Shown: piece after piece, positions 4,828 through 63,664 of the stretch
Layout: every line of letters starts with the position of its first letter
How positions within the stretch are numbered: position 1 is the first letter of the stretch
Origin: an uncultured Opitutia bacterium
GTDB taxonomy: Bacteria; Verrucomicrobiota; Verrucomicrobiia; Opitutales; Opitutaceae
Length of the DNA: 64,000 nucleotides
Direction: 5' to 3'
NCBI GenBank assembly: GCA_903862955.1
Contig: CAIPAH010000016.1
Location: 62,001-126,000, forward strand
Notes under the pieces: model-generated
Seen by the model: the letters and a program-made list of their open reading frames with translations, nothing else
Database searches by the model: none
What the model was told of the DNA's origin: nothing
Position numbers and translations under genes: made by a program

Positions 4828-4883
4828 GCCCACGGAAGACACGGAATGCCAGAAAGCCTCTCCATTCCGTGTGTTCCGTGGGC
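4828..4883. repeat. inverted pair of 9-bp-periodic arrays upstream of the dehydratase
   Basis: The left arm reads GCCCACGGAAGACACGGAA..., and the right arm is its reverse complement with 20 of 21 matches. Each arm is two ~9-bp units (CACGGAAGA, CACGGAATG). It belongs to the dispersed periodic-array class seen across the window. Single-base uncertainty in the coordinates is possible. Confidence 0.6.
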
Positions 4884-9175: not shown

Positions 9176-11461
9176 TCAAAACTCGTCGTAGGCGATTTGG
9201 GTGGCCGGCACTCCCAGTGACGCGAGCATCTGGGTGCACGCCTTGATCATTTGGGGCGGGCCGCAGAGGTAGTATTCGACGGCCGCGGGGCTGGGATGAT
9301 CGTGGAGGAGGCGATCAAGCACGACGCTGTGAATGAAGCCGCGATGGCCGGACCAGTAGTCCTCGTCCAAGGGCGAGGAGAGCGCGACGTGGAAGGCGAA
9401 GTTGGAATGCTGCCGCGCCAGGCCGTCAAAGTAGTCGGTGTAGAAGAGCTCCTGTCGCGAACGCGCGCCATACCAGAAGCTCACCTTGCGCGCGGTGTGC
9501 TCCGTTTCGAAGAGGTGCGTGAGATGGGCGCGCAGCGGGGCCATGCCAGCGCCGCCGCCGATGAAGACCATTTCGCGCTGCGAGGGCTTGAGGTGAAAGT
9601 CGCCAAACGGGCCGAGGGCGGTGACTTCGTCGCCGGGCTTGAGATTGAAGACGTAGCTCGACCCGACGCCGGGCGGGCAAGCCTGGCCGGGCGGCGGGGT
9701 GGCGATGCGGACGTTGAAGCGCAGCGTCCGTTCGAGCTGTTGGTTGCTTGCGAACGAGTAATTGTTGCGGCGCTCCGTGTCGGGGTTGGTGGCGACCAGG
9801 TCGAAAACATGCTGCCGTTCCCACACGGCTGCGAACGGCGCGGGGATGTCGAAGTCCCGAAAACGGATCTCGTGGTAGCGTGGAATGGTGAGCTGCAGGT
9901 AATCGCCGGGAGTGAACGCGACCGGCGAGCTGCTCTCGACGGGCTCGAGGACGAGTTCCTTGATGAAGGTGGCGACGCTGCGATTGCTGACGACGCGCAG
10001 CCGGAACGGCTGGGGCTCGCGCACACCCGCCCCGCCGGCGCGCAGCAGGTTGAGGTGGAGCCGGCCCTGGCGTTCCTCGAGCGGGTAGGTGGCCAGGCCG
10101 CGGCAGACGGGCGGGCGCGCGGGCGAGCCGTCGGAGAGGTGAAAGCGGCCGTTGTGCTTTGGGCACTCGATGAGCTTTCCCTTCACCAAGCCGCCGGCGA
10201 GATGCGTGTTGCCATGCGTGCACACGCCGTCGGTGGCGTAAAGCTGGCCTTCGTCGTCACGGTAAAGCGCGTAAGTTCTCCGGCCGTGGTCGAAGCGGAT
10301 GACTTGGGCGGGCCCGAGATCGGCGCCGGCGCAGACTTCAACCCAGCCGTCCGCGTCGGGTGCCGCATCGGAGGCGGCATGGGTTCCCCGGGCGGCGGAT
10401 TTGGGCGTCGGCAACACCCGGCGGATGTAGTGCGCGGGATCCTTCAGCTGGCGCCGCACCGTCGGGATGATTTCGCGCCAGGCTGACAGGATGTTCGGAT
10501 ACGGCGGCGGCATGTCATCCTTGACGAGCGCATGGAGCCGCGGCAGCGCGTGATAGGGCACGAGCGGGAACATGTGGTGTTCCACGTGGTAGTTCATGTT
10601 CCAGTAGAGGAACCGATTCAAGGGGTTCATGTAGACCGTCCGGCAGTTGAGCCGGTGATCGAGGACGTTTTCCGCCAGGCCCCCGTGCTGGGTCAGGTTG
10701 TAAACGTAGAGCAGCCACGTCCCGAAGACGTTGGGAAAACAAATGAAGAGCACCGGCAGGAAGTTGCGGAAGTAGAGCGACAGGCCGATCGACGCGGCGT
10801 AGATCAGCAGGTAGAGCCGGGCGCGGAGGTAGACTTTGGGAAACTCCGAAGCGGGGACGAACGTCTTCTCGTCGGCGCGCATGCGGCCGGTGGCGTGGAG
10901 CACGAGGCGTTGGAGGTAATCCGGATGCAGCGCAAATAGGCCGAGTAGCAGGCCCTGCATGTCCGGCGGGCGGGGAAAATTAATCTCGGGATCGCGGCCG
11001 ACGATGATCGTGTCGCTGTGGTGGCGGATGTGGCTCCAGCGCCAGACAGTGGCTTCGCGTTTCACCATGAACGACGCGATTTCGTAGAGGGCGTTGTTCA
11101 TCCAGTCCGTCTTGAACGCCGTGCCATGGCTGGTCTCGTGCCAGCGCGAATCGGAAGTCTGGGCGTAAAACACGCAATAGATCGCGTAGGGCAGGCAGGC
11201 CCACCACGTGCCCCAAAGCAGCCACGTGGCGTAACCAAACCCGAAGAGCAGCGCGAACCAGATGAGCGTGTCGCGAATCGCGGGCCCGTCGCGGCGCTTG
11301 AGCAACTGGCGCATCGCCTCCCGGGGCACCGGGCATTGATACCAATCCGCCTCCGCCAGCCCCCGCTCCACGGCGCGCGTGCTGTTCGCCCCGGTCAGGC
11401 TGTAGTCGAGCCCGGTGGGAATTTCGCTGCTGGCGGTGACGGTCTCGCGAGTCACAGGCAT
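9176..11461 (-). CDS. three-domain fusion: fatty acid desaturase + Rieske [2Fe-2S] + NqrF-like FAD/NAD reductase
   Basis: 761-aa protein predicted to introduce a double bond or hydroxyl into a membrane lipid or carotenoid using its own electron chain. Residues ~60-320 are a membrane di-iron desaturase with three His boxes: HETSH (108-112), HIRHH (144-148) and HVEHH (292-296). Residues ~370-475 form a Rieske domain (CTHG at 414 and CPKH at 433). Residues ~485-761 are a ferredoxin-reductase module with NYSFAS (FAD), FIGGGAGMAP (NAD), YLCGPPQM, and an ending like NqrF (YDEF). NqrF's own plant-type 2Fe-2S domain is absent and the Rieske domain sits in its place. Substrate unknown. Confidence 0.88.
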   Translation of the reverse strand: MPVTRETVTASSEIPTGLDYSLTGANSTRAVERGLAEADWYQCPVPREAMRQLLKRRDGPAIRDTLIWFALLFGFGYATWLLWGTWWACLPYAIYCVFYAQTSDSRWHETSHGTAFKTDWMNNALYEIASFMVKREATVWRWSHIRHHSDTIIVGRDPEINFPRPPDMQGLLLGLFALHPDYLQRLVLHATGRMRADEKTFVPASEFPKVYLRARLYLLIYAASIGLSLYFRNFLPVLFICFPNVFGTWLLYVYNLTQHGGLAENVLDHRLNCRTVYMNPLNRFLYWNMNYHVEHHMFPLVPYHALPRLHALVKDDMPPPYPNILSAWREIIPTVRRQLKDPAHYIRRVLPTPKSAARGTHAASDAAPDADGWVEVCAGADLGPAQVIRFDHGRRTYALYRDDEGQLYATDGVCTHGNTHLAGGLVKGKLIECPKHNGRFHLSDGSPARPPVCRGLATYPLEERQGRLHLNLLRAGGAGVREPQPFRLRVVSNRSVATFIKELVLEPVESSSPVAFTPGDYLQLTIPRYHEIRFRDFDIPAPFAAVWERQHVFDLVATNPDTERRNNYSFASNQQLERTLRFNVRIATPPPGQACPPGVGSSYVFNLKPGDEVTALGPFGDFHLKPSQREMVFIGGGAGMAPLRAHLTHLFETEHTARKVSFWYGARSRQELFYTDYFDGLARQHSNFAFHVALSSPLDEDYWSGHRGFIHSVVLDRLLHDHPSPAAVEYYLCGPPQMIKACTQMLASLGVPATQIAYDEF

Positions 11462-16235: not shown

Positions 16236-16373
16236 AATTTCGATTTTCGATTTTCGACTTTCGATTGCCGGCAGCCCGCCGGCTCTGGGCTCCGCCTTGG
16301 CCCGAGACAACGTGTCCGTCGTCCTCACCGGTGGGCGGCGCGAATCGAAATTCGAAATTCGAAATTCGAAAAT
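16236..16373. repeat. inverted pair of 7-bp-periodic TTCGATT arrays between nuoD and nuoI
   Basis: Left arm (16236-16264): TTCGATT, TTCGATT, TTCGACT, TTCGATT. Right arm (16343-16373): repeated ATTCGAA units running AATCGAAATTCGAAATTCG and on. The arms are complementary over most of their length and enclose ~78 bp of GC-rich DNA. The element occupies nearly the whole gap, at the place where nuoEFG would be expected. Confidence 0.75.
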
Positions 16374-25630: not shown

Positions 25631-25784
25631 TCACGCAAAGCCGCCAAGGCGCAAAGACCATACCTCATCGCGGAAACGCGGAGGGGCGGAAGCGCGAATC
25701 GATCCGCCAGAGTTTTCCTCCGCGCCTCCGCGTTTCCGCGATAGGGTTGTAGTCTGGTCTTTGCGCCTTGGCGGCTTTGCGTGA
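25631..25784. repeat. nested perfect inverted repeats between convergent nuoN and gltD-like genes
   Basis: The outer arms are 30 bp and exactly complementary (25631-25660 and 25755-25784), built of 8-bp units CGCAAAGC, CGCCAAGG, CGCAAAGA. The inner arms are 18 bp and exactly complementary (25667-25684 and 25725-25742), built of GCGGAAAC, GCGGAGGG units. It may act as a bidirectional terminator; there is no U-tract. The outer arm recurs alone at 8123-8149. Confidence 0.85.
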
Positions 25785-33385: not shown

Positions 33386-34334
33386 TACCGCTCTTCCAAG
33401 GCAGCGCGTCGAGGTCGACGTTGCCGCCGGTGAGAATGATCCCGACGCGGCGGCCGGTGACGTCGATCTGGCGCTCGGTGATCGCCGCATACGGCACGGC
33501 GCCGGACGTCTCGACGATGATCTTCAGCGACTCCCACAGCGTGCGCATCGCGGCCACGATGCCGGCTTCGCTGACCGTGAGCACGCCGTCCACGTGACGC
33601 TGCATTACCGCAAAATTGGGCGCGCCCACCGTCGTGCGCAGGCCGTCGGCGATCGTGTCGGCGTGTTCCAGCGGCACGATATGGCCGGCCTCGAATGAAC
33701 GCGCGGCATCACCGGCGCCGAGTGGCTCGACGGCGAACACGCCGAGGGCGGGGGAGACGCCCTTGGCGACGATGGCCGTGCCGGCGAGGAGTCCGCCGCC
33801 GCCGACCGGGCAGAGCACGAGGTCGAGCTGGGGGACGTCCTCGAGCAGCTCGAGCAGGGCGGTGCCCTGGCCGGCCATCACGCGCTCGTCGGTGAACGGG
33901 TGAATCATGGTGGCGCCGGTCTCGGCGATCACGCGGGCGCAGGTTTCCTCGCGGGCCTGTTGCGTGGGGGCGCAGAGTGTGATCCGGCCGCCATAGCTCT
34001 CGACGTTGCGGATCTTCGCGGGCGAGGAATTCGACGGCATCACGATGTAGGCCGGGATGCCGCGCAGCCGGGCCGCGCGGGCGAGGGCGGCGGCGTGGTT
34101 GCCCGACGAGTGCGTGGCGACGCCGCGGGCGGCCTCGGTGGCGGAGAGGGAGAAGACGGCGTTGGTTGCGCCGCGGGCCTTGAAGGCCCCGACCTCCTGG
34201 AGGTTCTCGCACTTGAAGAACAGCCGGCCCCCGCAGGCCGCGTCGAGCGCCGCGTTGGTCAGGACCGGCGTGCGACGGATGTGCGGCCGGATGCGTTCGT
34301 GCGCGGCGCGGATGGCGGCGAGGTCCAGGGGCAT
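33378..34334 (-). CDS. threonine/serine dehydratase (PLP-dependent)
   Basis: 318-aa fold-type II PLP enzyme that deaminates threonine (or serine) to a 2-keto acid. The ATG giving MPLDLAAIRAAHERIRPHI matches the family; longer frames run into a repeat. The PLP Lys is in GAFKARGATNA, then SSGNHAAALA, and the phosphate-binding Gly loop VGGGGLLAGTAI. No C-terminal ACT regulatory domain, so this is the short catabolic/serine racemase-like type. The last residues GKL are encoded by the repeat hairpin. Confidence 0.9.
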   Translation of the reverse strand: MPLDLAAIRAAHERIRPHIRRTPVLTNAALDAACGGRLFFKCENLQEVGAFKARGATNAVFSLSATEAARGVATHSSGNHAAALARAARLRGIPAYIVMPSNSSPAKIRNVESYGGRITLCAPTQQAREETCARVIAETGATMIHPFTDERVMAGQGTALLELLEDVPQLDLVLCPVGGGGLLAGTAIVAKGVSPALGVFAVEPLGAGDAARSFEAGHIVPLEHADTIADGLRTTVGAPNFAVMQRHVDGVLTVSEAGIVAAMRTLWESLKIIVETSGAVPYAAITERQIDVTGRRVGIILTGGNVDLDALPWKSGKL

Positions 34335-34347
34335 GGCGGATTGGGAG

Positions 34348-34449
34348 TTAAGCGCAAAGACGCGAAGAGGCAAAGACCGAACCGGAAGTTTTTGGGGAAA
34401 TTCTCCCAACCTTACTCCGACCTTTGCATCTTTGCGTCTTTGCGCTTAA
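34348..34449. repeat. inverted pair of 8-bp-periodic arrays in a divergent promoter region
   Basis: Arms of 31 bp (34348-34378 and 34419-34449) match at about 27 positions in inverted orientation. Units are GCAAAGAC, GCGAAGAG, GCAAAGAC. The arms enclose ~40 bp of AT-richer DNA. The element fills the gap between the divergent dehydratase and glyoxalase genes, where both promoters should lie. Confidence 0.75.
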
Positions 34450-34458
34450 TCATCAGCC

Positions 34459-34839
34459 ATGGTTAAGAAACTCCTGCACACCCGCATGCGGGTGAACGAC
34501 CTGGCCCGCACGGTGAAGTTCTACCAGGACGCCCTCGGGCTGAAGTTAACCCGCCAGCACATGTCGCCGCGTGGCGCGCAGCTGGCGTTCCTCCAGACGC
34601 CGAACAGCGACGAGGAAATCGAGCTTTGCCAGCTGCCGAACAGCCCGAGCGTGGCGGTGCAGCCAGACCTGATGCACCTGGCCTTCGAGGTGGATGACCT
34701 GGCTAAATTTGCCGCCGAATTGGAAAAGAAGGGCTACAAGCTGAGCGATGGCCCGACGCAGTCCGGCAGCGGGTCGGTGATTGCCTTCATCGACGCGCCG
34801 GAGGGCTACGAGGTGGAGCTGATTCAGAAAGCGAAGTGA
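34459..34839 (+). CDS. gloA: lactoylglutathione lyase (glyoxalase I, VOC family)
   Basis: 126-aa metal enzyme isomerising the methylglyoxal-thiol hemithioacetal. Two beta-alpha-beta-beta-beta modules. Metal ligands are His in LLHTRMRVNDL, Glu in EEIELCQL, His in LMHLAFEVDDL and Glu in GYEVELIQ. VNDLARTVKFYQDALGLKL is the family start. Monocistronic, flanked on both sides by periodic repeats. Confidence 0.9.
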   Translation: MVKKLLHTRMRVNDLARTVKFYQDALGLKLTRQHMSPRGAQLAFLQTPNSDEEIELCQLPNSPSVAVQPDLMHLAFEVDDLAKFAAELEKKGYKLSDGPTQSGSGSVIAFIDAPEGYEVELIQKAK

Positions 34840-34955
34840 GCTGAAAGCGGTAAGCTGTAAGCGATAAGGGAAGCGCAGTCGGGAGAACTCCCTGGTGGCT
34901 CGGGTGCTTGGTTTTGGGTCTGTGGCTTAGAGCTTAACGCTTACAGCTTAGCGCT
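34840..34955. repeat. inverted pair of 7-bp-periodic AGCTTA arrays between gloA and the glycosylase gene
   Basis: Left arm GCTGAAA, GCGGTAA, GCTGTAA, GCGATAA (34840-34867). Right arm facing it: GAGCTTA, ACGCTTA, CAGCTTA, GCGCTCA (34929-34956). The right arm overlaps the end of the glycosylase gene and supplies its stop codon. ~60 bp lie between the arms. Confidence 0.75.
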
Positions 34956-38104: not shown

Positions 38105-38172
38105 TCACGCAAAGCCGCAAAGCCGCGAAGCCGCAAAGATCCAAACCTTTGCGTCTTTGCGGCTTTGCGTGA
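38105..38172. repeat. inverted pair of 8-bp-periodic CGCAAAGC arrays between two minus-strand genes
   Basis: Left arm begins TCACGCAAAGCCGCAAAG and continues through two further 8-bp units. The facing right arm is exactly complementary over 18 bp (38155-38172). It lies between the end of the second ABC exporter gene and the start of the lipoprotein gene, so it could terminate the exporter transcript. Confidence 0.8.
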
Positions 38173-49012: not shown

Positions 49013-49088
49013 GTCCTCCGTGGGCAGGTCCCAAGTCGAAGCCGCACCGTTGCAGGTCGGGCTGGACGCCCGACAGTTCGACACGGAT

Positions 49089-49107
49089 GTCGGGGATAAA
49101 CCCCGAC
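49089..49107. terminator. GTCGGGG-ATAAA-CCCCGAC hairpin after the second PEP-CTERM gene
   Basis: A perfect 7-bp stem with a 5-nt loop, 27 bp beyond the stop of the gene at 49134 (minus). Could be a terminator or a REP-like element; no U-tract. Confidence 0.45.
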
Positions 49108-49133
49108 CCACCCCAACCCGGCTGCGGCCGGCC

Positions 49134-55411: not shown

Positions 55412-56032
55412 TCACAGCAGCGGCCGCAGCACCTGCCACACGTTCTCGGCCACGCGGACGGCGCCCGCCGCGGTGGGGTGGACGCCGTCGGGCTGGTTGA
55501 GATCCGGGTGGCCGCCGACGCCGTCCAACAGGAACGGAATCAACGGCAGGTGGTTTTTCGCGGCGAGCGCTGGATACATCGCGGCAAAGTCCGCCGTGTA
55601 ATCCCCGCCCATATTCGGTGGCAGCTGCATGCCGGCGAGGACGATGCGGGCGTCGGGGCATTGGAGGCGCACGTGGTCAATGATGCGCTGGAGATTGGCG
55701 GCGGAGAGACTGGGTTCGATGCCGCGCAACCCGTCGTTGGCCCCGAGTGCGAGTACGAACAGGTCGACGTGCTGGCGGAGGATCCAGTCCACGCGGCGCA
55801 GCCCGCCCGCGGTCGTTTCGCCGCTGAGGCCGGCGTTGACCACGCGCCACGGCAAGTGGGCGGCGTCGATTTTTTCCTGGATCAGCGCCGGGTAGGCCTC
55901 GTGGGCGGGGTCGTCGAGCCCGTAGCCGGCCGTGAGGCTGTCGCCGAAGAACACGAGCGTCCGCGGCTCGGCGGCGCCGAGCGTGGCGGTCGCCAGGGCA
56001 AGCCCGAGAAAGAAGGTGAAACGCGCGCTCAT
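55412..56032 (-). CDS. tesA: periplasmic arylesterase/thioesterase I (SGNH hydrolase, TesA)
   Basis: 206 aa with signal peptide (FTFFLGLALATATLGAA). The four SGNH blocks are intact: FFGDSLTAGYGL (Ser), VVNAGLSGETTAGG (Gly), LALGANDGLRG (Asn), DGVHPTAAG (Asp and His). It is divergent from the ybbA-ybbP transporter, exactly the arrangement in E. coli and many bacteria, which supports the names of both. Confidence 0.92.
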   Translation of the reverse strand: MSARFTFFLGLALATATLGAAEPRTLVFFGDSLTAGYGLDDPAHEAYPALIQEKIDAAHLPWRVVNAGLSGETTAGGLRRVDWILRQHVDLFVLALGANDGLRGIEPSLSAANLQRIIDHVRLQCPDARIVLAGMQLPPNMGGDYTADFAAMYPALAAKNHLPLIPFLLDGVGGHPDLNQPDGVHPTAAGAVRVAENVWQVLRPLL

Positions 56033-56097
56033 GCCGGAAATCGACCGCTTGAACTAGCGTTCGTGCCAATTCCCGTGTTTCGTGGCCAGATTCTTTT

Positions 56098-56787
56098 ATG
56101 AACGCGCCAACGATGCTGCAGGTGGACCGGCTGACCAAGACGTATCGCGCCGCGGGCGGACCGCTGACGGTGCTGCGCGACGTGACCTTCGCGCTCGCGC
56201 CGGGCGCGAGCGTGGCGATCGTGGGCCCGAGCGGCAGCGGCAAGACGACGCTGCTCGGCCTGTGCGCCGGGCTGGATCGCCCGAGCAGCGGCGCGGTGAG
56301 CATCGCGGGCGAGGCGATTGGCGAACTTGACGAAGACGCCCGCGCGCTCGTGCGCAACGCGCACGTCGGGTTCGTGTTCCAGAATTTCCAGCTCATCCCA
56401 ACGCTGACGGCGCTGGAGAACGTGCTGGTGCCGGTGGAGCTGGCGGGCGACTCGACGCGCGAGGCCGAGGGGCGCGCGCTGCTCGCGCGCGTCGGGCTGG
56501 GGGAGCGCTGCGACCACTACCCGGTGCAGCTGTCCGGCGGCGAACAGCAGCGCGTGGCGCTGGCGCGGGCGTTCATGAACCGCCCGAAGATCCTCTTCTG
56601 CGACGAGCCCACGGGCAACCTGGACGGCGACACGGCCGCGGTGATGGTGGACCTGATCTTCGGCCTCAACCGCGAGCGCGGCACGACGCTCGTGCTGGTG
56701 ACGCACGACCTGGAACTCGCGCGCAAATGCTCCCGCGTGATCCGCCTCAAAGGCGGGGCGGTGGTGAGCGACGAGACGGTTTCGTAA
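56098..56787 (+). CDS. ybbA: ABC transporter ATPase YbbA (LolD/MacB type)
   Basis: 229 aa. Walker A VGPSGSGKTTLLG, Q-loop FVFQNFQLIPTL, signature LSGGEQQRVALARAF, Walker B ILFCDEPTGNLD, His in VLVTHDLELA. Powers the FtsX-like permease encoded at 57277. In most genomes ybbP follows immediately; here 489 bp with a GxxExxY gene intervene. Confidence 0.92.
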   Translation: MNAPTMLQVDRLTKTYRAAGGPLTVLRDVTFALAPGASVAIVGPSGSGKTTLLGLCAGLDRPSSGAVSIAGEAIGELDEDARALVRNAHVGFVFQNFQLIPTLTALENVLVPVELAGDSTREAEGRALLARVGLGERCDHYPVQLSGGEQQRVALARAFMNRPKILFCDEPTGNLDGDTAAVMVDLIFGLNRERGTTLVLVTHDLELARKCSRVIRLKGGAVVSDETVS

Positions 56788-56794
56788 CGGATTT

Positions 56795-57268
56795 GCCCGC
56801 GAATTACGCGAATTGGCGCGAATCGTCGGACGAAACCATGAGCAAAATCATCTATCCGGAAGAAAGTTACAAAATTATGGGAGCGTGCTTTGAGGTGTAT
56901 AACGACAAAGGCTGCGGATTCTTGGTGCCGGTCTATCAGGAGTGTTTGGAACTCGAAGTTGGTCTGCAGAGCATTCCCGCGCGGCCGCAAACAGCACTCC
57001 CGCTGACTTACAAAGGCGTGACCCTGAAACAAAACTACCGACCAGATTTTGACTGCTACAATAAGATCATACTCGAGCTCAAGGCGGTCGAGAAACTCAC
57101 CGACGAACACGTCGCCCAAGTGCTGAATTACCTCAATGCCACGGGTTACGAGCTCGGGCTGCTGGTCAATTTCGGAGCGCAGCCCAAACTCGAATACAAG
57201 CGCATCGTGCGCACCAAACGGTGATGCTTCATTGGGTTTTATTCGCACTCATTCGCGCAATTCGCGGG
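56795..57268. mobile_element. 474-bp element with 29-bp inverted termini carrying a GxxExxY gene
   Basis: Left end 56795-56823 (GCCCGCGAATTACGCGAATT...) and right end 57240-57268 are inverted copies matching at 25 of 29 positions. Each is made of three CGCGAAT units spaced 9-10 bp. The only gene inside is the GxxExxY ORF. The element separates ybbA from ybbP, which are normally adjacent. No target-site duplication is evident. The permease start codon is only 9 bp beyond the right end, so the element now supplies its upstream region. Confidence 0.65.
56838..57224 (+). CDS. GxxExxY family protein (PD-(D/E)XK nuclease-like)
   Basis: 128 aa, complete. MSKIIYPEESYKIMGACFEV, then GCGFLVPVYQECLELE, where the family consensus is G-x-G-x(5)-V-Y-x-E; E35 is the first acidic residue. 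NYRPDFDCYNKIILELKAVE gives D70, E80 and K82, the PD-(D/E)XK core. LNYLNATGYELGLLVNFG is the conserved C-terminal strand. The codon usage and base composition (many AAA/ATT codons) are lower in GC than the neighbours, suggesting transfer. Cellular role of the family is not established. Confidence 0.85.
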   Translation: MSKIIYPEESYKIMGACFEVYNDKGCGFLVPVYQECLELEVGLQSIPARPQTALPLTYKGVTLKQNYRPDFDCYNKIILELKAVEKLTDEHVAQVLNYLNATGYELGLLVNFGAQPKLEYKRIVRTKR

Positions 57269-57276
57269 CACAATTC

Positions 57277-59865
57277 ATGAATTTCATCCTCAAAATGGCG
57301 TGGCGGGACTCGCGGGCTTCGCGACGGCGGCTGGCGTTGTATTCGCTGTCGATCGTGCTCGGGATCGCCGCGCTCACCGGCATCGGCTCGCTGGGCGACA
57401 ACCTCCGGCGGACGGTCGAGCTGCAGACGAAATCCCTGCTGGGCTCCGACCTCGCGGTCACGTCGCGCAAGCCCTTCGACGACGCGGCCATGGCGTATTT
57501 CCGCAGCGTTGGCGGCGAGATTTCGACGGAGGTCGCGTTCACCTCGCAGCTCAATTTCGTGAAACACCCCGGCGAGCGGAAGCTCGTGCAGTTGGTGGCG
57601 ATGGACGGGAAATTTCCGTTCTACGGCGAGGCGGTCACGATGCCGGCCGGTGCGCTGGCGAAGCTCGCCGACAACCAGTCGGTAGTGCTGGAGGAGACGC
57701 TACTGGTGCAGTTCGGAGTGGAGATCGGCGACGAGGTGCGGCTCGGCAGCGCGACGTTCAAGGTGGTGGGCGCGTTGAAGAAAATCCCGGGCGATGCCGC
57801 GATCATCGCGCTGTTTTCGCCGCGGGTTTACCTCTCGATGGGGGCGCTCCAGTCCACGGGTTTGCTGAAGAAGGACGGCTTCGCGCGTCACCGCGTGCAC
57901 TTCAAGCTGCCGGCGACGACCGATCCCGACCAGCTGGCGAAGGCGATGAAGGAGAAATTCAAGGGCGTGCGCTACAATTTCGACACGGTGGAGGAGCGGA
58001 AGCGCCAGCTCGGGACGATGCTGCAGGACGTCTATTCCTTCCTGAGCCTGGTGGGTTTCGTCGCCCTCTTCCTCGGTGCGGTGGGCGTGGCGAGCGCCAT
58101 TCATGTGTACATCCGCCAGAAAATCGCGACCGTCGCGGTGCTGCGCTGCCTGGGCGCGAGCGGGCGGACGGGTTTTGCCATCTATCTCGTGCAGGGAATC
58201 GGCCTCGGCGTGCTGGGCTCGGTGCTGGGCGCCACGCTGGGCGTGGCGGTGCAGTTCATCCTGCCCGTCGTGCTGAAGGACTTTCTGCCGTTCGAGGTGC
58301 AGCTGTTCGTGTCATGGGTCGCGCTGGCGAAGGGCGCGGCGGCGGGGCTGGTGATCTGCGTGCTGTTCACGCTGCTGCCGCTGCTCGCGGTGCGGCGCGT
58401 GTCGCCGCTGGTGGCGCTGCGCTCCGCCCTGGGCGAAAACACGAAGATGGATCCGCTCACGCCCGTCGTCTACGTCGGGATCGCGGCCGCGGTGGTGGGA
58501 TTTTCCATCCTCCAGACTGGTCACTGGAAGACTGGGCTCGGCTTCTCCGCGATGATGGCCTTCAGCTTCGGCGTGCTGGGTGGCGTGGCGCAGCTGGTGT
58601 CCTGGGCGGCAAAGAAATTCGTGCCGCGCCGGCCGCTGACCTACGTCGTGCGGCAGGGACTCGCGAACCTGCACCGGCCCAACAACCGGACGGTGCTGCT
58701 GCTGCTGTCGCTCGGGCTGGGGTCGTTTTTGATGATCAACCTCGTCCTCGTGCGCGCGACGCTGAGCGACAAAATCATGGGCGTGGGCGCGGGGGCGCGG
58801 CCGAACCTCATGTTTTTCGATATCCAGGACGACCAGTTTGCGCCGCTGCAGAAGATCCTGCGCACGGAAGGTGCGCCCATCCTCGTGTCGGCGCCCATCG
58901 TGACGATGAAGCTCGAGTCGGTCCGCGGCCGGCCGGTGGCGGAGTTGCTCAAGGATGAGGCCGTGGTTTCAGCGGAATCGCCCGACGCCCGCAACCGGGC
59001 GGAGCGGGCGGAGGCGCGGGAGAAGGGCAAGATCCCGGCGTGGACGCTGACGCGCGAGTATCGTTCGAGTTATCGCGCGCAGCTCGGTGACACCGAGAAG
59101 ATTTCCTCGGGCGAATGGATCGGGCGCGCCCGGCCCGGCGAGGCGCGCGTGCCGATCTCGGTCGAGGAGGGTTTGGGCAAGGAACTGCAGCTCGCGCTGG
59201 GCGATGAACTCGTCTTCGACGTGCAGGGCGTGCCGCTGAAGACCTACGTGGCCAGCCTGCGCACGGTGGAGTGGCAGCGGATGCAGCCAAATTTCTTCAT
59301 CCTGTTTCCCGAAGGCGTGCTGGAGCCCGCGCCCAAGACCTTCGCGGCGGCGGTGCGGGCCGAGACGCCGGCGATCGCGGCGCACGTCCAGCAGGCCGTG
59401 GCCAAGGCGCTGCCGGGCATCTCGACCATCGACCTCACGCTGATCCTCCAGACTTTCGACAGCATTTTTTCGAAGGTGGAATTCGTGGTCACGTTTATGG
59501 CCGGCTTTACCATCGTGACGGGCGTGGTGGTGCTGGCGGGCGCGGTCCTGAGCGGACGCTACCAGCGGGTGCGCGAGACGGTGCTGCTGCGCACGCTCGG
59601 CGCGACGCGGCGGCAGCTTCGGCAGATCCAGCTGGTTGAGTATGCCGTGCTCGGCGTGCTTGCGACCGTGACGGGCGGAGGGCTCGCGGTCATGGGCAAC
59701 GCACTGCTCGCAAAATTTGTGTTCAAGAGCGCCGTCGTGCTGCCCGTCCCCGCGCTCCTCGCCTCGATGGCCGTGGCCGTCGCCGTGACGCTCATCACCG
59801 GCCTGCTCGCCAACCGCGGGGTGGTGGATCATCCGCCATTGGAAGTTCTGCGCCAGGAGACGTGA
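57277..59865 (+). CDS. ybbP: ABC transporter permease YbbP (FtsX/MacB type)
   Basis: 862 aa with an N-terminal helix, a large periplasmic MacB_PCD domain (~50-270), three helices with FtsX-fold (VYSFLSLVGFVALFLGAVGV), a central helix block (~430-500), a second periplasmic domain and a second FtsX block (FVVTFMAGFTIVTGVVVLAG) near the end. With YbbA it should mobilise lipids, lipoproteins or lysophospholipids across the envelope; the divergent TesA partner fits that. The start is taken at the ATG giving MNFILKMAWRDSRASRRR. Confidence 0.9.
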   Translation: MNFILKMAWRDSRASRRRLALYSLSIVLGIAALTGIGSLGDNLRRTVELQTKSLLGSDLAVTSRKPFDDAAMAYFRSVGGEISTEVAFTSQLNFVKHPGERKLVQLVAMDGKFPFYGEAVTMPAGALAKLADNQSVVLEETLLVQFGVEIGDEVRLGSATFKVVGALKKIPGDAAIIALFSPRVYLSMGALQSTGLLKKDGFARHRVHFKLPATTDPDQLAKAMKEKFKGVRYNFDTVEERKRQLGTMLQDVYSFLSLVGFVALFLGAVGVASAIHVYIRQKIATVAVLRCLGASGRTGFAIYLVQGIGLGVLGSVLGATLGVAVQFILPVVLKDFLPFEVQLFVSWVALAKGAAAGLVICVLFTLLPLLAVRRVSPLVALRSALGENTKMDPLTPVVYVGIAAAVVGFSILQTGHWKTGLGFSAMMAFSFGVLGGVAQLVSWAAKKFVPRRPLTYVVRQGLANLHRPNNRTVLLLLSLGLGSFLMINLVLVRATLSDKIMGVGAGARPNLMFFDIQDDQFAPLQKILRTEGAPILVSAPIVTMKLESVRGRPVAELLKDEAVVSAESPDARNRAERAEAREKGKIPAWTLTREYRSSYRAQLGDTEKISSGEWIGRARPGEARVPISVEEGLGKELQLALGDELVFDVQGVPLKTYVASLRTVEWQRMQPNFFILFPEGVLEPAPKTFAAAVRAETPAIAAHVQQAVAKALPGISTIDLTLILQTFDSIFSKVEFVVTFMAGFTIVTGVVVLAGAVLSGRYQRVRETVLLRTLGATRRQLRQIQLVEYAVLGVLATVTGGGLAVMGNALLAKFVFKSAVVLPVPALLASMAVAVAVTLITGLLANRGVVDHPPLEVLRQET

Positions 59866-62456: not shown

Positions 62457-63277
62457 AAGCCAACCCCCCGGCATCCGGCCCCGCCACCCCCCGCATCCGC
62501 ACCATCATTGTTGACGACGAACCCGCGGCGCGCCGCGGCGTGCGCCTGCTGCTCGAACGCGACGGCGGCGTGGACATCGTGGGCGAGGCGGGCGGCGGCG
62601 CGGAGGCCGCGGAGCTCATCGCGCGCGAACGCCCCGAACTCGCGTTCCTCGATGTACAGATGCCGGGCTGCGACGGTTTCCAAGCGCTGGTCCGGGCCGG
62701 GGTGGGGCAGGCGCCGGCCGTGATCTTCGTCACCGCCTACGACGAACACGCGCTGCGGGCGTTCGAGGTGAACGCGGTGGATTATCTGCTGAAGCCCTAC
62801 GATGACCTGCGCTTCGCCGCCGCGCTTCAGCGGGGGAAGGACGAGGTGCGCCGCCGGCAGACCGACACCGTCAACTCGCGGCTGCACCAGTTGCTCGACT
62901 ACCTGCAGCAGGTTCCGCCGCCGGCGCCGCCGCCCGAAAACACGGCCGACCGGATCCTGCTCAAGTCGTCCGGGGAGATCTTCTTCCTCAAGGCCGAGGA
63001 GATCGACTGGATCGAGGCCGAGGGCGACTACATGAAATTCCATGTGAACGGCCGCACGCACCTGATGCGGGAAACGATGGCCCGGCTCGAGGCGCGGCTG
63101 GATCCGAAGCATTTCATCCGCATCCACCGCTCGACCATCGTAAACATCGACCGGCTCCGGAAGCTCAGCCCGTCGTTTGCGGGCGAGTATGCCGTGATCC
63201 TGCACGACGGGACGAAGCTGAAACTCAGCCGCGGCTACCACGAACGCATCGCGGCGCTGCTGAAACAGGCGCTCTGA
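62453..63277 (+). CDS. LytTR-family response regulator
   Basis: 274 aa. Receiver domain (IIVDDEPAARRGVRLLLER, phospho-Asp in LAFLDVQMPG, FVTAYDEHALRAFEV, KPYDD), a Pro-rich linker (~155-170) and a LytTR DNA-binding domain (LKAEEIDWIEAEGDYMKFHV, FIRIHRSTIVNIDRLRKL). Partner of the kinase encoded just upstream. Typical targets are exopolysaccharide, autolysis or virulence genes; none can be named here. Confidence 0.93.
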   Translation: MKANPPASGPATPRIRTIIVDDEPAARRGVRLLLERDGGVDIVGEAGGGAEAAELIARERPELAFLDVQMPGCDGFQALVRAGVGQAPAVIFVTAYDEHALRAFEVNAVDYLLKPYDDLRFAAALQRGKDEVRRRQTDTVNSRLHQLLDYLQQVPPPAPPPENTADRILLKSSGEIFFLKAEEIDWIEAEGDYMKFHVNGRTHLMRETMARLEARLDPKHFIRIHRSTIVNIDRLRKLSPSFAGEYAVILHDGTKLKLSRGYHERIAALLKQAL

Positions 63278-63451
63278 GGATCGTGGAAGCGCGAAAGGGC
63301 GGAAGCGCGGAGAACGGCGGGGTGGTTTCCACTGCAGGAGCGGCTTTACGCCGCGAGGCTCGCAATCATTCGCGGGATAAACCCGCTCCTACATTCAATC
63401 TGGACCACGATCCGATTCCCGGAATCCGCGCTTTGGCGTTTCCGCGATCCT
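63277..63451. repeat. inverted 8-bp-periodic arrays enclosing a REP hairpin
   Basis: Left arm 63277-63303 and right arm 63425-63451 are inverted copies, 23 of 27 matching, with units GGAAGCGC, GAAAGGGC, GGAAGCGC. Inside, 63336-63390 is a GGAGCGG...CCGCGAG / CGCGGGATAAACCCGCTCCT hairpin. The 387-bp gap 63278-63664 contains no supported gene. The nested layout matches that at 25631-25784. Confidence 0.75.
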
Positions 63452-63664
63452 CGGACGGCCTGCGCCGGAGTGCGGCGGTTGCGCGACGGGATTTTCCCGC
63501 GTGTGGAATCCTGCGACCCGAATATGAGACGGAAAACGACGGCGCGGGCAGCCGGATTTATGACAATTTTCCGGGTGAACGCGCGCCGGCTTTGATTGGC
63601 CGCGAAGTCGCCGGGGTTGGTCGCATTTCTGCGACTGGGGAATCCGTCATGCGGTTCTACCAGC

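Follow-up and report, generated by a model that had tools for sequence, protein, structure and literature searches.

The window locus

The window, as we call the whole 64,000-nucleotide stretch of DNA analyzed here, carries a 477-bp unit composed of an arm, a 128-codon gene, and a mirrored arm. The unit lies between two genes that we take to be ybbA-like and ybbP-like, following an earlier sequence-only reading of this DNA. See Table 1 for the coordinates of all features. The arms pair at 26 of 30 positions (25 of 29 over the extent given in that reading) and hold three CGCGAAT-like units each, spaced 9 and 10 bp apart in the left arm and 10 and 9 bp apart in the right. Six nucleotides separate the end of the right arm from the ybbP start codon at 57277. 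The GC content of the unit is 0.52, compared with 0.71 for ybbA and 0.66 for ybbP. Inverted ends of CGCGAAT units around a single 128-aa ORF, with a GC content below that of its neighbors, had been described in the sequence-only reading, and this description proved accurate. No tRNA was found at the locus, and no CRISPR or helicase partner was noticed adjoining the gene.

Single CGAAT-type arrays, searched within the window alone, were no better than chance; the signal lies in the mirror pairing. We expressed this pairing as an arm score, the best inverted match between the 300–350 bp on each side of a gene, and we call genes with a score of at least 28 armed. The window locus scores 40; a comparison set of 248 ordinary small genes, taken from this genome and from sister genomes, has a median of 19, a 99th percentile of 29.5, and a maximum of 42.

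Table 1. Features of the window and related repeats; positions refer to the window unless another locus is named.
Feature	Position	Strand	Description
Left arm	56794..56823	+	Outer to inner: TGCC, then CGCGAAT three times, at 56798, 56807, and 56817
Right arm, inverted copy	57241..57270	-	ATTCGCA/ATTCGCG/ATTCGCG at 57241, 57251, and 57260, then GGCA
GxxExxY-family gene (TIGR04256/PF13366)	56838..57224	+	128 aa, predicted PD-(D/E)XK fold, V replaces the motif glutamate
ybbA-like ABC transporter ATPase gene, left neighbor	56098..56787	+	Presumed name
ybbP-like permease gene, right neighbor	57277..59865	+	Presumed name
Gene-less inverted pair	4828..4883		Unit CACGGAA, 9-bp spacing
Gene-less inverted pair	16238..16371		Unit TTTCGAA, 7-bp spacing (TIGR02436 type)
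Gene-less inverted pair	25631..25784		Unit CGCAAAG, best lag 8 bp
Gene-less inverted pair	34332..34461		Unit CGCAAAG, best lag 8 bp
Gene-less inverted pair	34846..34955		7-bp spacing, GTAAGC type
Gene-less inverted pair	38105..38172		Unit CGCAAAG, best lag 8 bp
Gene-less inverted pair	63266..63462		Unit CGCGGAA type
GTAG-type repeats	Window 49052-49111; L185 13902-13999; L197 12049-12111; L201 11766-12396		

The gene encodes a predicted PD-(D/E)XK nuclease

The window protein is a clear member of the GxxExxY family by score, reaching 132.3 bits against the TIGR04256 profile (cut-off 35, E 1e-38) and 133.1 against PF13366 (PDDEXK_3; cut-off 22, E 8e-39); the names of these families state no biological role. 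PDDEXK_3 was the sole Pfam profile above its cut-off, and no HUH Y1 tyrosine transposase was matched. The GxxExxY motif itself is absent in the window copy, so that membership rests on the whole profile. Here the motif reads G27-F-L-V30-P-V-Y33, with valine in place of the name-giving glutamate, and E35, which had been taken for that glutamate, is a different residue. Among 154 sequences with a letter in this column, 152 have E, one has D, and the window copy alone has V. As V30 (codon at 56925-56927) is the sole non-acidic residue in this column, the window copy may be impaired; a sequencing error at this base is the other possibility.

The assignment of D70, E80, and K82 as PD-(D/E)XK residues was correct. 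D70 and K82 are found in 155 of 155 family sequences, and position 80 is E or D in all 155. Q94 is present in 143 of the 155 and Y98 in 150. The Q-x3-Y pattern is typical of RecB/Cas4 nucleases, and ExK and QxxxY are the motif names used for nucleases of the Cas4/RecB type. An AlphaFold2 model of the window protein (pLDDT 93.8, pTM 0.86) has a PD-(D/E)XK-like fold, and its best match among solved structures is the Cas4 protein SSO0001, with a Foldseek E value of 7.9e-5, a VIA Z of 9.8 (next row 8.1), and an rmsd of 4.5 over 103 residues. By modeled fold and D/ExK residues, the window protein thus qualifies as a predicted PD-(D/E)XK nuclease. No solved structure was matched by sequence, whether the query was the window protein (up to E 1) or the profile (up to E 10).

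Inverted arms accompany the gene family

We scored the flanks of GxxExxY genes in three sets. In the genus, 38 of 44 genes are armed. This set holds 45 genes, taken from 47 matches by dropping two, one a further piece of G004:C188 and the other a fragment in G008 that fell below the cut-off; one gene without enough flank was left out of the count, which becomes 39 of 45 if its short flank is included. By site, 19 of 21 hold an armed gene. In a phylum sample, 26 of 30 genes are armed. Among named contigs, the figure is 66 of 77, drawn from the best 80 of 582 matches (three were without enough flank); all belong to clade GPGLLES, so this count speaks for that clade. The 77 loci span 19 taxonomic groups, with at least one armed gene in 15 named phyla, one of them archaeal. 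At least one locus (L076 = L115, with a score of 24 each time) belongs to the phylum sample and the named contigs alike, so the genes are not all distinct when the sets are pooled.

Scores of this size are rare elsewhere. They are reached by 4 of the 248 small genes and by 4 of 542 offset windows within the named-contig loci. Offset windows in the genus (n = 112) have a maximum of 30, and one of those in the phylum sample (n = 108) reached 53. Because the named-contig clade has one kind of unit, high scores are also seen when arms are swapped among its loci (median 21, 90th percentile 34); for its arms, the shared unit is better evidenced than the pairing. The association of arms and gene proposed for the window thus holds far beyond that locus, and flanking inverted arms are commoner around GxxExxY genes than around ordinary small genes, most of the GxxExxY genes scored being armed. 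About 14% of GxxExxY genes have no detectable arms.

A clear period is present in 85 of 130 armed genes, a criterion that shuffled arms pass in 5–9% of cases; by the same criterion, the other 45 have no clear period. The best lag is 8–11 bp in 84 of these 85 genes, 13 bp in one, and 7 bp in none. In the named-contig clade, the outer arm end is T-rich, followed by AC. Three GxxExxY loci on viral contigs (L239, L240, and L241) are all inverted-flanked, with scores of 46, 88, and 33, and one is of the CACAAAG type. Three genus genes with one internal stop (L032, L211, and L214) have well-matched arms, scoring 45, 53, and 70.

Units and gene-less copies

Protein clades in the genus differ in their unit, which may be CGCTAAT, CACGAAT/CGCGAAT, CGCGGAA, CRCGGAT, CCAGGAAACCAGGAA, CTCAGGAAATCAGG, CGCAGAG, or CGCGAAG. 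The clade of the window protein has the units CGCGAAT/CACGAAA/CACGGAA. Over 19 independent sites, protein identity correlates with arm similarity (Spearman rho 0.38, a value reached in none of 2000 permutations). The link between unit and protein is real but loose, since the arm of the nearest protein ranks first or second in similarity in just 8 of the 19 cases.

Inverted pairs also occur without a gene. We found 9 pairs of all kinds in the window, compared with 1, 4, and 0 in three shuffles. The gene-less pairs that had been pointed out there are real; none bears the CGCGAAT unit of the window gene, copies of which lie elsewhere in the genome. A scan of 464 kb of the window genome gave 45 inverted pairs. 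By reading, 23 of these are gene-less and periodic, three are gene-bearing (two GxxExxY, one TIGR02436), and the rest are other repeats or coding matches.

We counted units as whole-genome patterns in 12 genus genomes, where backward-pattern controls gave 0–1 per strand and genome. GGAAGCCAGGAA occurs 110, 39, and 31 times in G000 (the window genome), G010, and G008, in which a gene with this unit is present, and 7, 6, 1, or 0 times in the other nine. CGCTAAT arrays number 25 and 28 in G002 and G005 and 0–1 in the other ten. For CTCAGGAAATCAGG there are 16 and 8 copies in G009 and G011, 7 in G005, which has no such gene, and 0–2 in the other nine. Where such a gene is present (four genomes), CGCGAAT arrays reach 118, 88, 53, and 51; G001, G009, and G011, which have no gene of that unit, have 22–35 (from high to low, 35, 34, and 22), and five genomes have 0–1. 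CACGAAA counts are 61 and 51 in the two genomes with the gene and 39 to 0 in the other ten. CACGGAA shows less specificity, with counts of 47 and 14 in the two genomes with the gene, 0–2 in six, and 13–42 (from high to low, 42, 38, 37, and 13) in the set G000, G001, G005, and G008, again without a gene of that unit.

Exact rank tests for the six units over the 12 genomes, with each gene's own arms subtracted, gave 1/220, 1/66, 2/66, 1/495, 1/66, and 7/66, a test that phylogeny confounds; tree-independent genome pairs, too few for significance, never ran in the opposite direction. Copies of CGCGAAT, CACGGAA, and CTCAGGAAATCAGG in genomes without the matching gene mean that the link between unit and gene is not one to one. 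For the clade-H gene L028, arms were not found, and its genome is without copies of that unit. In line with the sequence-only reading, the gene-less copies have units in common with the gene-bearing ones and mostly track the matching gene.

The arms are common to 20 GGAAGCCAGGAA pairs, whose outer motif ends lie 41–205 nt apart. In the 14 loops long enough to compare, no match to the gene-bearing copy exceeded 9 nt, and where these loops match one another, the matching parts look by eye like nested repeats. In structure, the gene-bearing copy does not differ from the gene-less pairs; the gene is its loop. In the loops of the gene-less CCAGGAA pairs L226, L229, L230, and L237, there appears to be a nested second pair of the CGCGGAA type. 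A separate class, sometimes nested in the loops of periodic pairs, consists of REP-like repeats of the GTAG type (such as GTAGGTCGGGCTTTACGCCCGAC; Table 1).

The ybbA–ybbP junction in related genomes

We compared the junction in 11 of 12 genus genomes, each at a locus holding ybbA; the weak match L074 was left out, and G001 was possibly missed. Arms and gene are present in G000, G008, G007, G005, and G002. G009 and G011 (loci L064 and L065) have a gene-less TGTGACA pair, with 7-bp spacing by eye. G003 has what looks by eye like a degraded remnant, scoring only 18, and G004 has no clear arms. In G006 and G010 the junction is tight, with the two genes overlapping as ATGA by reading. Both register types seem to use one site at this junction (L064, L065).

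The search for an empty site, proposed as a check on the unit, thus returned filled, gene-less, and empty states among relatives. The sequence-only reading had named two outcomes that would count against it, namely relatives always carrying the gene at this site with the same flanks and a gene family generally lacking arrays; neither occurred.

The sisters G007 and G008 are 94.3% identical in DNA over ybbA and the start of ybbP. At the junction, however, the proteins encoded by their genes share 59% identity and the arms are different; the gene most similar to that of G007 is in the distant G002 (72%). The stretch between the flanks is 59% identical in the sisters. In the flanks, identity in 60-bp steps is 90–98%, dropping to 75% in a single block at the 3' end of ybbA. 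The flanks are thus far more alike than the arms and gene between them, which must have been exchanged together, in a single block.

The same sisters share synteny over 144 kb at 92.6% identity, with 17 length differences between aligned blocks, of which 15 were inspected (all except C107:45301 and C74:278941). Three periodic repeats are present in G007 and absent in G008: a full CGCGAAT pair (score 49) and, identified by eye, a composite and a lone arm. The gene-bearing copy L023 in G008 has unrelated sequence at its place in G007. The remaining differences are GTAG-type or similar palindromes or have no periodic arms.

A second family with a 7-bp register

Genes of the TIGR02436 four-helix-bundle family in the same genus (L033-L062) are also armed, 20 of 30 scoring at least 28. 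A clear period is present in 19, and in all 19 it is 7 or 14 bp; shuffled arms pass the criterion in 17% of cases. In the window genome, one of these genes (L061, G000:C16:165414-165731) has the unit CTAATGNCTAATG, which occurs 17 times there and 0–1 times in the other 11 genomes. Because a second family is likewise armed, in a 7-bp register, a general principle is likely, in which small proteins are each paired with a periodic repeat whose register is set by the protein family. We tentatively suggest a broader possibility: a new class of mobile DNA, made of helically phased 7-bp words in inverted arrays and spread in trans by small word-reading proteins, with two unrelated families as members (GxxExxY at 8–11 bp, in bacteria and archaea, and TIGR02436 at 7 bp).

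In a separate locus (L254, ~10202-10609), a perfect 21-nt inverted repeat, nearly palindromic (GTGTAACCTATTGGGTTACAC), flanks a small gene whose match to HigA is below the cut-off, and G007 has similar letters.

Interpretation

From the observed arm–gene association, periodicity, links of unit to protein and to repeat population, junction states, block replacement, and purifying selection, we infer that the 477-bp unit is probably the gene-carrying member of a set of dispersed inverted periodic pairs, in a nuclease–repeat partnership like that of REPIN and RAYT. Most GxxExxY genes would be paired with their own 7-bp unit, typically three per arm and 8–11 bp apart, close to one helical turn. 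Such phasing would put three bound copies on the same face of the helix, and the two arms would present the unit in mirror orientation. The protein, a small stand-alone Cas4/RecB-like PD-(D/E)XK nuclease, may bind the arrays as DNA and act on the arms, cutting or trimming them, probably when they are extruded or single-stranded. Host repair could then copy or exchange the segment bounded by the arms, and cutting would in this way drive the spread of the repeat. One resident gene may serve gene-less pairs in trans, as a RAYT is thought to serve REPINs. Purifying selection would keep the gene at fixed sites, and the block of arms and gene would at times be replaced whole. Together, nuclease and repeats suggest a little-noticed and very widespread family of mobile DNA.

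The gene could instead serve the host as a nuclease of repair, recombination, or defense, with the arms as binding or regulatory sites, the units used for chromosome upkeep, and no mobility. Between species, dN/dS is 0.03–0.12 in 11 of 13 computable pairs and 0.22 and 0.26 in the other two; four of 17 pairs were saturated, and many dS values exceed 1, so these ratios are rough. Ten sites, with 34 of the 45 genus genes, are common to at least two species, counting a match of one flank as common. Therefore, the genes are largely resident and selected rather than freely jumping, passed on for the most part vertically and kept under purifying selection. One family member had matches in 8 records among 72,556 from plasmids and in none among 50,697 from phages, and PADLOC gave a weak match to PDC-M36A (E 1.5e-4 over 54 residues), all of which would suit a host function. 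However, gene-less pairs differ between sister species, units differ among close species, blocks are exchanged, and the gene is patchy, being present in 51 of 115 sampled phylum genomes. We consider a purely host-serving nuclease unlikely.

The sequence-only reading had proposed a mobile element, in effect a classical transposon that moves autonomously, ends in terminal inverted repeats, and gives rise to MITEs. Inverted ends, an internal gene, gene-less relatives, and presence or absence among relatives are what such an element would leave. However, near-identical gene copies within a genome, a trait of transposons and IS elements, are absent: the window genome has three GxxExxY genes, and the other two are 35% identical to that of the window. 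The common sites and purifying selection described above also speak against it, as do the gene-less loops, which in the 14 comparable cases match the gene-bearing copy over at most 9 nt. Inspection by eye of 20 gene-less copies and 15 sister-species differences, where junctions are mostly not clean, showed no duplication of the target site; nor were intermediates or recent gene duplications seen. Exchange of the unit as a block is supported; self-movement of the usual kind is not, given divergent copies, common sites, and purifying selection, with no target-site duplication seen. An autonomous transposon is quite unlikely, and the picture is closer to that of a resident gene that serves a repeat population.

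Alternatively, the element may act as RNA, with a transcript hairpin (a terminator, an mRNA stabilizer, or an intervening-sequence-like excision) in which the gene merely occupies the loop. The arms are complementary, the window unit lies between two co-directional genes, and the name of the analogous TIGR02436 family points to a 23S rRNA intervening sequence. However, mismatches between arms in 125 elements lack the G-U bias of an RNA stem on the coding strand (121 G-U-type and 135 A-C-type, p 0.42). Between arms, unit columns are 95% identical and spacers 58%, where a stem would hold both; spacers of different elements are 37% identical, and all of these percentages lean high in absolute terms because the local alignment and the unit pattern select matches. 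Furthermore, the units track the protein clade, and no Rfam match up to E 1 was found in 56000-58000. Since G-U bias is absent and units are better kept than spacers, the comparison favors recognition of the units as DNA, and an RNA-level element seems unlikely.

Replication slippage or mutational bias, with an incidental gene association, can make short periodic arrays and is hardly credible here, as mirror pairing surrounds a single gene family across 15 named phyla, compared with 4 of 248 other small genes, and units reach 118 copies where backward patterns give 0–1 per strand and genome.

Comparison with known systems

Cas4 carries four cysteines for an Fe-S cluster. Nucleases of the Cas4/RecB type (4ic1, lambda exonuclease, and MGME1) have the fold and the ExK and QxxxY residues in common with the modeled window protein. 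The window protein differs in length, at 128 residues compared with 202 for SSO0001, and in the absence of conserved Fe-S cysteines, as no invariant or nearly invariant Cys column occurs in the GxxExxY alignment of 31 sequences. One published locus reportedly has a GxxExxY domain at the place expected for a cas4 gene (PMC8934634).

Like MITEs and their transposons, the gene-less derivatives and gene-bearing copies have common ends. Unlike them, the loops here do not resemble the gene-bearing copy, no target duplication was seen, and there are no recent gene copies.

In open-licence PMC papers, we found nothing that ties GxxExxY or PF13366 to repeats, and array strings of 15–16 letters returned an unrelated occurrence only. 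The portions available to us of papers on REPIN/RAYT, GTAG-REP, and heptamers (PMC4679880, PMC3116915, PMC3733652, and PMC6344855) contain no repeat tie to GxxExxY. GxxExxY is a common annotation without a role in the literature searched, and its tie to a word makes its function directly testable. The partnership would account for one class of interspersed bacterial repeats (the ACCACAGAG..., CACGAAT..., and CCAGGAA... arrays), and the diversity of units and proteins is a ready data set on how a nuclease of 120 residues could read 7-bp words.

The closest parallel is REPIN/RAYT, in which dispersed inverted repeat pairs are each tied, class by class, to one resident gene of nuclease type beside the same repeat (PMC3116915, PMC3733652). 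The two systems are alike in their dispersed inverted pairs that match the gene-side repeat, their variable loops, and the apparent co-evolution of repeat class and gene. They differ in the enzyme, which is an HUH Y1 tyrosine transposase in RAYT and a predicted PD-(D/E)XK nuclease here; in the repeat, REPINs being GTAG/CGTC-tagged palindromes and the present arms periodic arrays of 7-bp units; and in the place of the gene, which here sits inside the pair as its loop. The GTAG/CGTC tag is missing from the arms, which begin T-T-N-A-C in the named-contig clade or TTTTAGCC. This is probably a repeat-plus-resident-nuclease partnership with a different enzyme, with a fair chance of being a separate class, and a second, unrelated case in the style of REPIN/RAYT would show that such partnerships have evolved repeatedly.
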